A stretch of DNA of 29,768 nt from Saccoglossus kowalevskii (taxonomy: Eukaryota; Hemichordata; Enteropneusta; Harrimaniidae): the NCBI RefSeq assembly GCF_000003605.2, contig NW_003141312.1:197072-226839 (forward strand), given 5' to 3'. The stretch's first letter is position 1, and each line of letters starts with the position of its first letter. A model generated the notes under the pieces. That model was given only the letters and a program-made list of their open reading frames with translations. It did no database searches and was not told the origin of the DNA. Both the position numbers and the translations under genes were made by a program. Positions 9,701 through 21,700 of this stretch are shown here, piece after piece.

Positions 9701-12700
9701 TAAATTTCAACTTGTTTTATCGTAAGCGAATGATTCTGATCGCATTTTCAGCGCTCGATGCTGTAGAAATGAATATCTACCATGTTTGACCTGAGACTGT
9801 GTTCTTTGACCTGACAGGTCAAATCGATGATTAACCAATGAAAACGATGGATGATGCCAACGTGTTCAAATTACCATAGCTCATTTAAATATGTTAATGT
9901 TATTAAATGCAGCACGGAAGAGATTTGTCGATGTTGTTGTACGATCTTTTGGCTTGGATTTTGATGGAAAAGCGGCATGATTTGTTTTTAAATAAAAAAA
10001 AATAGTTGCTTTCAAAAGATAAACTGAGCATTTGAAGAATAATTTAAGATTGTTTACAGCGATAACAGCTCATTGTCGAAACAAAACTAACCCATTCATG
10101 CTAGTCGCAATAAACATCAATAATCTTGAATAGGCGTCAATGACTTCGGCGAAATTTTTAGGCCTCAAAAAAGATTAAAATAACACCTTAAAAAAACTGT
10201 CGAAAAATTGCCCTGGCGCGGTTTCTTGGTCTCAATTTATTTTTTTTAAAAACCAGAACTGCCGTTTAACGGCCCTGGGCGAATTTACGGCAGAATCCGG
10301 TAAGTACCAAGGTAGTCTGTATTTATGTACAAGATTTGAGTGAGAATGGATTCTTATGCATATGAATATTGTGTTTTATTGCTAATGGTTACTCATGTTT
10401 GTCATGTTTTTTTTCCCTGGCAGTCATTAACAGAGGATAGAGAGATTTTAGGGTTTGCCTCTGCTATTCCATATGTAATGACACATTTACAAACACTGTT
10501 GGAGAATGTAGATACCCCAGGTAAGCATGATTTAAATGTACTGAATATGCACCATATTTGTGTAATGTGGCAGTGTCATGCTGGTACAACCAAAATGTAC
10601 ATCTATGTGCTTCTGATAGAGCCAGTAAACTACATGTAATATATAGTTGTCAAAAAATCAATATTTGATTTGCAGTTATATATGTCTTCTATAACATATC
10701 AACAAAGTTATTAGACCATGTGCTGAAATGTGTATGCTAGCAGACAGATAACAATTGTTATATATGTCTTCTATAACATATCAACAAAGTTATTAGACCA
10801 TGTGCTGAAATGTGTATGCTAGCAGACAGATAACAATTGTTATATATGTCTTCTATAACATATCAACAAAGTTATTAGACCATGTGCTGAAATGTGTATG
10901 CTAGCAGACAGATAACAATTGTTAGTGTTTTTATATTTTGTGTCTTTGTATATTGCATTTAGCGATTTAAGAAAAAGACAATTGTTCACTATCATATTTG
11001 CTTGTTTTATTAGATTTGCTAATTGCAACAGTCGACAACATTTGCTATGTGGCTGAAGTTTATCCATCCATATTTAGACAGCATTTCAGAGTAAGTTTTA
11101 GGATGCAATAGGATTCCCACAGTCGTTTTACATGTCCCTAACATGGCTTTGGTATTTTTAAGGCCTTAAAAAGGTCTAAAATACAATAAATATTTTGATA
11201 AAAAAACACAACAGATATTGTGTATTTCATACAGGACAATCTCTGATATCGTGAGTAAAACTGTGCGATGTCACATGTTTGTCATGTGAAAACTTTGATA
11301 ATAACTGTGCCTGTGGGACAAAATACAGATGAATTTACAATGGGAAAATATCTGATATCGGGATTAGATTTTACTGTTGGATCACAGTAAGGGGGCCTGC
11401 ACATTCTATGTATGATAAATTATATTTTCACAACTCAAAACCGGTTTGCTCACTTTATGACTGTTTTTACTGTGTATTACTTGTTTGCTTCAGACTGTTT
11501 GGATCAAGTAAGATTTTGAGTTATAAATAATATAATACATTTTAATTGCATATTCATTGATTTACTTTTTCCCCCCAAATTGAGTCTTAACAAAGCCTAA
11601 AATTTGATGAGTGAGGTCTTGCAGAAACATGCATTATCAAATAATCTTTGTTATCGTTATAAAAAAATGGTTATTTCTTCACAGGACACTGTAGACATAT
11701 TAGTTGGGTGGCACATCGATACAAGTCAGAAAACATCTCTTACACGCTATACTGCAGGTAATAACACACAGTTGTAACCAGAGCCTTTGATGTCTCAATT
11801 GTATGAATTATATAAAATTGCATTTGAAAAATATTTTTAAGTGATACTAACATTGTTGCAAGGGAAGAAAAAATGGAAAAACAAGTTGTGATTGCGAAAT
11901 TCCTTAAAAGTTGCATACTTCACTAGTATTACTGTGTTCAATATTGTATTATTTATATCTTGACATTTCCTAGTGTCCTTTAAAAGCTAGAAAGGTAATC
12001 CTAGCCCAGGAGAGGCATAGATATTGTTAAATTATGCAAGCATATAATCTGCTCAAGGACCATAAACCACCACAATATGCAATGATACTCTAGGATACTC
12101 TATGATTAGTGTCTCTGCTGTGGAATTGTAAAATGCCAATAGGCTGTCATGCATGTTCTTCTTTCTATTGTCTGAATAATGTATTACTGAACTAACTGAT
12201 GCACGACCAGGATTTCAATATACATGGTTATTGAGTGTTGTTGTTCAGATGTTGAAAATTTTTTGCTGTAATTAATATATTATTCAGTGTTGTTTCTCAG
12301 ATGTTATTGTTCGTCTTCCCTGTTTAGCCCAACACTCCATGGGCTTATGGATTGGGTCCTGTCTTTCGTCTGTATGTCTGTGGACCAATTTTTTCTGAAA
12401 CTTGGTACATTCTTGATACTTGGTGGTTAACATATGCTCCAGATTTGTTTAGTCCCCGTTCGGATGCAGTTCGAAAACGAGGACTTATGGATTGACCTCT
12501 GTGCCTGTGTGTGCGTGCGTGTGTCTTAGAGATGCCTGGACCTGTATCTTAGACATGCCTGGACCAATTACATTCAAACTTCACACATACATAATAAATA
12601 ATATTATACATATGCACATCAATTTGTTTCACGATCTGATTCAAGATGGCCGAATGGCAGCGTTATGATGACAGATGTATAATAATATTGGAGACTCATA

Positions 12701-18700: not shown

Positions 18701-21700
18701 TATAGTACATGCTGTTACATGGTTGCTGTATTTATATTACATGCTGTATCATGGTTACTTCATTCATACTACATGCTGCACTTACATGGTTACTACATTC
18801 ATACTACATGCTGCACTTACATGGTCACTGTATTTATATTACATACTGTTACATGGTTACTGTATTTATATTACATGCTTTTACATGGTTACTGTAATCA
18901 TATTACATGCTGTTACATGGTTACTTCATTCATACTACATGCTGTTACATGGTTACTGTATTTATGTTACTGCATTCATACTACACACTACATTTATATC
19001 ACATGCTGCAGTTACACGATTACTGTATTCATATTGCATGCTGTTACATGGTTACTGTTTGCATATTATATTCATATTACATATTGCAGTTGAATGGTTA
19101 CTACATTCATATTACTTGCTGCAGTTATTGTGTTACTGCATTCATATTACATCCTGCAGGGTTACTACATTGATGTTACTTATAGCAGTTATTAAATGCT
19201 TATTCTAAAACCAACATAAGGATTTGTGTTCACTGTCTTACTCAAGGTGCCCCAGTACATTGCTATACGACTCCTATTCCTGTTGAATGACATGAATAAA
19301 TAACTTACACATTTGTGACCAATCAACGTGACACGTTCAATTTCGGTCCAAATGCTTTGATACTTGGTATGTAGGCACATTGGGTGGACCTCTCTCAGAT
19401 TTGTTCATTTCGTGATATCTTCATTTCTCTAATTTTGATGAATATTTTTGTCATTTTTGATAAAAAATAATATTTTTGACTTCTCCTTGAAAACTGCTTG
19501 TCCAATTGCTTTGATATTGTATATGTAGGTACATCAGGTAGACCTCTGTCAGATTTGTTGATTTTGTGACAATATCTTCAATTCTCTAATTTTGATGAAT
19601 ATTTTTGTCATTTTTGGTAAAAAAATTGTATTTTCAACTTCTCCTTGAAAACAGCTTGTCCAATTTCTTTGATATTGTATATGTACGTATATCAGGTGGA
19701 CCTCTGTCAGATTTGGTAATTTCATGACGATATCTTCAAATCTCTAATGTTAGTGAACATTTGTGTAATTTTTCGTAAAAATGTTATTTTCAACTCGTTG
19801 AAAACTTCTAACCTTATTGCTTTGTAAATTTATTTGTAGGTACCTTGGGTGGATCTCAGTCAGATTTGTTAATTTCATGATGATATCTTAAATTCTCTAT
19901 TTTAACAAATATTTTCGTCATTTTTCATGAAAAAACATATTTTTGACTTGTACTTCAAAACCAGTAGTCCAAATTCTTTGATACTTGTACACATGCAGCT
20001 TGGTTAGACCTCTATTAGATTTGTCCATTTCATAAAGACGACGCATGGCGTAAATTTCACCAGGAAATTCATCAGTGTGCTCTTGCAATTGCGGATTTAT
20101 TCATTTTTACAAGATTCGCCATTTTTTGTTGTTACATGGTACTTATGTAAACAATGACTGTCCAGTTTTCGCGAACTTGTCTCTCTATACTTATGTTTTT
20201 TAATCATATACGCTAAATTACTGTTCTGAATGAAACAACAGACAGAGAATGATTTACTTAAAAACGTCATCAAACCCTTCTTGCTACCTTGAGGTCACAC
20301 CATGGTAAAATTGTGAAGGCATATAATATAACCTTTATGGAAGCTTTTGCCACCCTCAGTCAGCTAACACACCCTCAGTCAGCTAACACACCCTCAGTCA
20401 GCTAACACACCCTCAGTCAGCTAACACACCCTCAGTCAGCTAACACACCCTCAGTCAGCTAACACACCCTCAGTCAGCTAACACACCCTCAGTCAGCTAA
20501 CACACCCTCAGTCAGCTAACACACCCTCAGTCAGCTAACACACCCTCAGTCAGCTAACACACCCTCAGTCAGCTAACACACCCTCAGTCAGCTAACACAC
20601 CCTCACAATTTCTGGAGCTTCCGTCGCGCGACCTCAGGCCCCAAAAGCTTTGTTTCCATAAAGACTAATGTTTTCGCAGTCCGAAAACGGGGACTTATGT
20701 TTTGACCTCTGTGCGTCCATGCTTCCGTGCTTGCGCGAGTCCGGACCTGTATCTTAGAAATGCCTGGACCAATCACAATCAAACTTCATACATACATCTT
20801 ACATGATATTATTTTGTTCAAACTTGGTATATACGTTGGGCATTATAGGACCTTGATGCAGATCATTTTGTTTTTCAGATAAAATTCAAAATGGCTGACT
20901 GGCGGCCATTTTGTTTTAATAAATGTGGTTCTAGTGCCTTATCTCTGACTTGCTGTAACTGATTATGTTCAAATTTTAAATATTCATTTATATACATTAT
21001 GTCATAGATATACCGATATATTGGTTTGACGATCCTATTAAAAATGGTCGAATAGTGGCCATTTTTGTGCTAGAAAATCATCAAATATCAAGCATTTCTG
21101 GTATTTATGGATGGATTTTGTTCAAACTTGGTACATAGATTAGACATTACGGGTTCCTGATGCACGTTATTTTATTTTTTAGATCGGATTCAGAATGGCT
21201 GACTAGTGGCCATTTTGTTTTAATGAATGGGCTTCTAGAGACATATCTCTGACATGCTTCGACTGACTATGTTCAAATTTTATATATTCATTATACATGT
21301 ATTCAAAATGGCTGATTTTGTTTTAATTAATGCTGTTCCAGAGCAATATCTCTCAATACTTTTTTGACGATCAGATACAAATGTCAATCATTTAAATGTT
21401 AAACAATCATCATAATCATATTCCTGACATGTTTATATTCCAGCTATATTATTTAGTCCCCGTCCGAAAACGAGGACTTATGTTTTGACCTCCGTCTGTC
21501 CGTCCGTCCGTCCGTCCGTCCGTCCGTCCATCCGTCCATCCGTCCGTCTGTCCGTCCGTCCGTCCGTCCGTCCGTCCGTCTGTCCGTCCGTCCGTCCGTC
21601 CGTCCGTCTGTCCGTCCGTCCATCCGTCCATCCGTCCAGACCTGTATCTTAGAAATGCCTGGACCAATCACAATCAAACTACACACATACATCATACATG

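Follow-up and report, generated by a model that had tools for sequence, protein, structure and literature searches.

Hairpin-bearing elements in the window

The 29,768-nucleotide stretch of the Saccoglossus kowalevskii genome analysed here (contig NW_003141312.1, positions 197,072 to 226,839 of the forward strand; hereafter the window) contains interspersed elements that start with a T-run and a short hairpin. The initial annotation had described a common grammar at four sites: TTTAG, a stem arm, a loop, the complementary arm and CTTA. A window scan, in which the stem was defined as AG plus three pairs, found the four on the plus strand at 3006-3041, 12323-12347, 12448-12487 and 21452-21480, as well as a fifth match at 22560-22593 that is AT-rich and chance-like. 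The minus strand of the window has no match. In 200 dinucleotide shuffles the mean was 0.21 matches and the maximum 2, compared with five in the window, which bears out the four-site grammar. The four sites very probably mark the 5' ends of elements from three families (A, B and C), all of them non-autonomous Helentron-associated elements (HINEs) of the DINE-1/pearl kind.

The stems pair, and they differ between families; the four sites carry three distinct stems, since 12448 and 21452 share one stem and belong to one family. When folded as single-stranded DNA, the hairpin at 3006 has a z score of -6.1 (none of 200 shuffles as good) and that at 12323 a z score of -3.3 (2 of 200). The hairpins at 12448 (z -1.7, 10 of 200) and 21452 (z -1.5, 18 of 200) are only weakly above shuffles; arm 2 is mismatched in both, and the hairpin at 21452 is also without the inner stem. 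The hairpin of the family B copy L015 has a z score of -6.8. Searching Rfam at gathering scores gave no matches in the window.

Family A is represented by a complete element of subtype A1 (3006-4167, plus strand). After the T-run and the 5' hairpin at 3009-3039 (AGCTCCGCTGTCGAC-TTT-GTCGAGCGGAGCT) follow a microsatellite-like stretch of the GTCC type, about six core repeats of about 157 bp, a 3' subterminal inverted repeat (subTIR; ACAGCGGAGCTA, 4133-4144) that is exactly inverse to the 5' arm over 12 bp, the palindrome CAGCC-GATA-GGCTG (4148-4161) and a final TTGTT. An additional start of the same kind, missing from the initial annotation, is situated near 26200. It belongs to an A2-like family A element (26199-26542, plus strand) with a 3' subTIR at 26508-26519 containing one mismatch and a palindrome at 26523-26536. 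Its hairpin is decayed (z +0.6), including the inverted repeat that is found beside the 5' subTIR in the families.

Two family B elements on the plus strand are nested. The younger one (21453-22222) consists of the hairpin (21455-21478), a long CCGT microsatellite (about 21490-21638), a core with CCAATCACAATCAAACT, the 3' subTIR AACGGGGACT (22194-22203), which is the inverse of the hairpin arm over 10 bp, the palindrome GCCATGCATGGC (22206-22217) and TTGTT. It splits the older element (20676-22285), which has lost arm 1 and retains arm 2 (20686-20695) and the 3' subTIR (22257-22266). What looks like a tandem duplication of the 3' end at 22222-22285 is one family B element nested in another.

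Family C is represented by a HINE-like element at 12324-12838 (plus strand), with a hairpin at 12326-12345, a core, an inner family B fragment and the 3' end GTGGCTGTGACATTCTCAATGGCTTGTT. Its two ends match over only about 4-5 bp as a subTIR, and its 3' palindrome is not clear. The inner fragment (12449-12660, plus strand) is a family B 5' part with its hairpin at 12451-12485; its 3' end is not seen, and its right border is approximate and was placed by eye.

The repetition of the stem arm at the 3' ends had not been described in the initial annotation. The CCAAT-type core that it had reported is present in the elements, but the quoted core CCAATTGCTTTGATACT has no exact match and is found at five places with one mismatch. 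Taken as a whole, the 5' subTIR, complementary inverted repeat, GTCY microsatellite, core and central repeats, 3' subTIR and palindrome match the published HINE/DINE-1 organization (PMC4067079, PMC7492417, PMC2374699). Families A, B and C are new families of an already known kind of element.

The window seems to cover an SMG1 gene with repeat-rich introns. Two exon-like stretches, at 7711-7869 and 25344-25538, match SMG1 kinase in a search of Protein Data Bank sequences (E values of 2e-7 and 4e-5), and a Pfam search with two exon-like stretches returned no family. Three pairs of inverted repeats, at 4184-5068, 7904-9038 and 9230-10302, resemble miniature inverted-repeat transposable elements (MITEs); the repeats are 27-35 nt long and 86-93% complementary, and each pair spans about 0.9-1.1 kb. 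Diverged 32/35-bp tandem units (TACATGGTTACT...) form a large array at about 13276-16607 and 18440-19200; it is split by other sequence, and an N gap lies at about 16740-16788 within this region. There are also a 19-bp minisatellite with more than 12 near-identical copies (20294-20662) and an 82-bp unit repeated three times (10675-10924).

Copies, element ends and a candidate partner in the genome

With up to three mismatches allowed, the 572-Mb assembly contains 2,073 family A1 hairpins and 1,405 family B hairpins; the reversed controls gave 0 in both cases. For family B, 40 places were scored, the window copy and 39 fetched copies, and both ends reached the score thresholds in 28 of the 39. 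The 40 scored places of family A were the window copy and 39 others, 20 of which were fetched, and all 20 passed. Together with three window elements, this gave an end-tested set of 51. A TTAG start is present in 47 of the 51 and a TTGTT end in 46, although the ends were placed by similarity to the consensus ends and the counts are therefore not independent proof. Canonical Helitrons, with 5' TC and 3' CTRR, do not have these ends, and this identity was rejected on the end structure and the empty sites.

Searching with joined flanks revealed paralogous empty sites, five of which were displayed. The younger family B element of the window (w21452) sits in the 3' part of an older family B element, at a position where other family B copies are uninterrupted. 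The empty sites of L055 and L041 lie within family B cores, that of L066 at 27293-27395 of the window and that of L038 in L048. One for L070, inside another family A element, was found by alignment only. In the displayed sites the 5' border is at the hairpin, which supports the hairpin as the 5' end of the element, as the initial annotation had supposed. None of the five shows a clear target duplication. The target is T-rich in four of them, where T runs make the border uncertain by a few bases. The rolling-circle, Helentron-type origin proposed in the initial annotation is thus supported for the non-autonomous elements by their anatomy, ends and empty sites.

At L070:379-495 two family A 5' hairpins are found 81 bp apart, and the flanks fit a family A element inserted into another. 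Further hairpin types, D and E, occur at L031:1518-1542, L020:1677-1701 and L036:2388-2427 and are followed by other sequence, which suggests more HINE families known from their 5' side alone.

A search of the genome with PF14214 gave eight matches, the best of them in L079. On the minus strand of L079 (4194-9127) adjoining open reading frames encode a Rep (Helitron_like_N, 9e-31), a PIF1 helicase (4e-24) and an Exo_endo_phos endonuclease (4e-12), which is the gene set described for Helentrons (PMC4067079). Using the L079 Rep as a query, 27 stretches on 11 contigs were matched. Reading frames for Helentron-type Rep and helicase proteins, to be looked for in the same genome according to the initial annotation, are present, together with one for an endonuclease. 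The family hairpins were to be compared with the terminal hairpins of autonomous elements, and no ends were recognised at the Rep-bearing loci examined; contig C1479, for instance, stops upstream of its Rep and showed no recognisable element end. For this reason the Rep-bearing loci are candidate partners of families A, B and C. In oyster, likewise, the HINEs could not be linked to autonomous elements (PMC7492417).

Several observations weigh against the assignment to Helentron-associated families. The search for an autonomous element sharing these ends was negative: model R1 has no match in L071-L084, and the hairpin scan of L079-L084 listed none, with one hairpin each in L081 and L084 falling below the listing criterion. 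Inspected by eye, L079 continues into other sequence on its 5' side and reaches an N gap on its 3' side. Among the 39 fetched family B copies, 11 are without a 5' end at the score threshold. The w21452 empty site reads TTACTATAAAC and has no T-run, so that a TT target would require the older copy to differ there by C to T. Family C consists of one element and one weak relative, L050, which shares the core and a similar 3' end and was, besides the element itself, the only find of a search with the 141-bp start.

Pairing of the stem within and between families

Stems that differ between families nevertheless still pair, as had been claimed. In 15 varied hairpins 88% of the cells are paired, compared with 29-48% when the partners are slid, and 9 of 15 stem pairs have changed on both sides. 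An earlier hairpin set gave 91.5% against 27-41%. These hairpins were picked for their fit to the grammar or to model R1 and represent about four distinct stems, so that the cells are not independent, and the layout of 10 + 5 stem pairs was set by the analyst. The initial annotation had read the paired differences as compensatory substitutions under selection on the folded strand or RNA, in families that descend from one ancestor with a co-evolving hairpin. We regard this as possible, if short of probable. Besides the pairing counts, it is favoured by the predicted folds of A2 and B, which differ in most stem letters and each have 15 bp, a loop of 3 nt and, on the 3' side, a bulge of 2 nt whose exact position varies somewhat. 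The preselection of the hairpins and the small number of non-independent events count against it.

Compensation was also examined within families, using our own pair counts on 60 A2 copies, on family B and on an alignment of 51 copies; the 2,073 A1 hairpins were counted only. A pattern with AGC, GAC, GTC and GCT fixed and nine stem pairs free matched 71 places, compared with 6 for the reversed control, and 60 were kept after 11 had been dropped beforehand as not family-like. In their paired columns double changes number 12, of which 7 are compensated, against an expectation of 13.0 (permutation p = 0.69). In the unpaired left-right columns there are 96 double changes, against an expectation of 96.2.

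In family B, columns 9/31 gave 261 consensus, 23 + 18 single and 6 double copies, an odds ratio of 3.8 (Fisher p = 0.017). The classes were counted whole, and 100 of the 261 consensus-class sequences were used with a weight of 2.61. After stratifying by other changes the odds ratio falls to 2.1, which indicates that copy age explains much of the association. The two testable CpG pairs, with odds ratios of about 3.8-3.9 and 6.3, lie within the range of 0.4-9.5 spanned by 23 unpaired combinations and are no more associated than unpaired sites. The 51 aligned copies contain 11 doubles (7 Watson-Crick) against 6.7 expected, a count made without correction for copy age that is weakly favourable to compensation at most.

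The copies tested are without a clear sign of compensating mutations and do not supply the claimed evidence; the A2 and family B copies do not bear out the inference from paired substitutions to selection acting on the folded strand. Copies within families probably decay independently and freely after insertion, and the negative result within families therefore leaves room for selection on the source elements. The few comparisons at the family level hint at a compensatory signal which the tested copies do not carry, and caution is needed when reading covariation in repeat copies that are probably decaying freely. We found no literature joining Helentrons with covariation. For DINE-1, compensatory maintenance of the 3' stem-loop was proposed in 2008, and the function of its inverted repeats was argued from structure that is kept despite changing letters (PMC2374699).

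Each element carries the outer arm three times, in both arms of the hairpin and again in the 3' subTIR, over 12 bp in A and 10 bp in B, and matched stems arise by that alone. Arm 2 and the 3' subTIR may accordingly be copies of one Rep binding motif, in which the match among three copies is what is kept and the inverted order gives the look of a hairpin; this seems possible, if short of probable. In favour of this motif, the 3' subTIR of A and that of B repeat the hairpin's outer 10-12 bp exactly, and family B copies whose arm 2 contains a C.A mismatch (4 of 28, plus both window copies) have multiplied. The inner helix also pairs, yet in B it lies outside the 3' subTIR, which argues against it. 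The A1 hairpin, with its different layout, speaks against a fold. A fold and a repeated motif bound by a protein account for the pattern about equally well.

The outer 9-11 bp of the A2 and B hairpins recur in the 3' subTIR; the loop and the 4-6 bp of the inner helix (ending in GAC/GTC) have nothing corresponding to them at the 3' end. The common A2/B shape could be a tag for the origin at the start of the element, read by a shared Helentron Rep, with the outer helix giving family identity. We consider this unlikely. In A1, by far the commoner hairpin, the unpaired bases lie on the opposite side and the stem is shorter, and because of this different layout our already low estimate was reduced slightly further.

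Proposed transposition and relation to known elements

It is very improbable that the elements are ordinary terminal-inverted-repeat MITEs mobilised by a DDE transposase. They are short, non-coding and abundant, with inverted repeats at both ends, which would suit MITEs. Against this, their ends are asymmetric, the 3' repeat is subterminal (19-23 bp inside the end), a microsatellite and a palindrome near the 3' end are present, and the five displayed empty sites show no clear target duplication. A MITE or other terminal-inverted-repeat transposon was rejected on the end structure and empty sites.

For Helentron-associated elements, the Rep/helicase/endonuclease of Helentrons in the same genome would most likely act in trans on families A, B and C. 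The Rep protein may recognise the 5' subTIR and the adjacent inverted repeat, possibly as a hairpin rather than as a double-stranded motif, and nick beside the T-run. One strand would then be peeled off by rolling-circle replication that stops at the 3' subTIR plus palindrome, comparable to the 3' hairpin described as the terminator of Helraiser (PMC4778049), and the new copy would enter another T-rich site without target duplication. The stem letters probably differ between families because every family carries an end motif of its own, which recurs in both hairpin arms and in the 3' subTIR. With the repeats named and their ends placed, there are concrete end sequences with which to seek the autonomous partner, which is also missing for the oyster HINEs.

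The comparisons with known systems refer to the cited passages of each description. Helitrons such as Helraiser share the rolling-circle logic and the 3' hairpin terminator, but they have TC...CTAG ends and insert between A and T, and a hairpin is described there only near the 3' end (PMC4778049). HINE-Mo/Helentron-Mo of the mite Metaseiulus is similar in the Rep/helicase/endonuclease type of partner, the subTIRs, the 3' palindrome and the T-rich insertion; in contrast to the elements here, its subTIRs are themselves palindromic, and a separate inverted repeat and core are absent from that description (PMC4067079). Drosophila DINE-1 has, like the elements here, an inverted repeat beside the 5' subTIR, a (CCGT)n(CTGT)n microsatellite, a conserved core, central repeats, a 3' stem-loop and insertion at TT (PMC2374699, PMC4067079), but the letters of the subTIR are different and the 5' inverted repeat is only partial (PMC2374699).

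Cg_HINE of Crassostrea gigas and the bivalve pearl family are likened to the present elements by description, not by sequence. They have a 5' subTIR of 11-12 bp followed by a complementary inverted repeat of 7-12 bp, GTCY/GTCC microsatellites, central repeats of about 140-180 bp, a 3' subTIR and a palindrome, and they insert at oligo-T without target duplication, with an autonomous partner not identified, as is the case here. The bulged layout of the hairpin is not among the features described in those passages. Related oyster HINEs are set apart by diagnostic differences in the subTIR, the inverted repeat and the stem-loops (PMC7492417).

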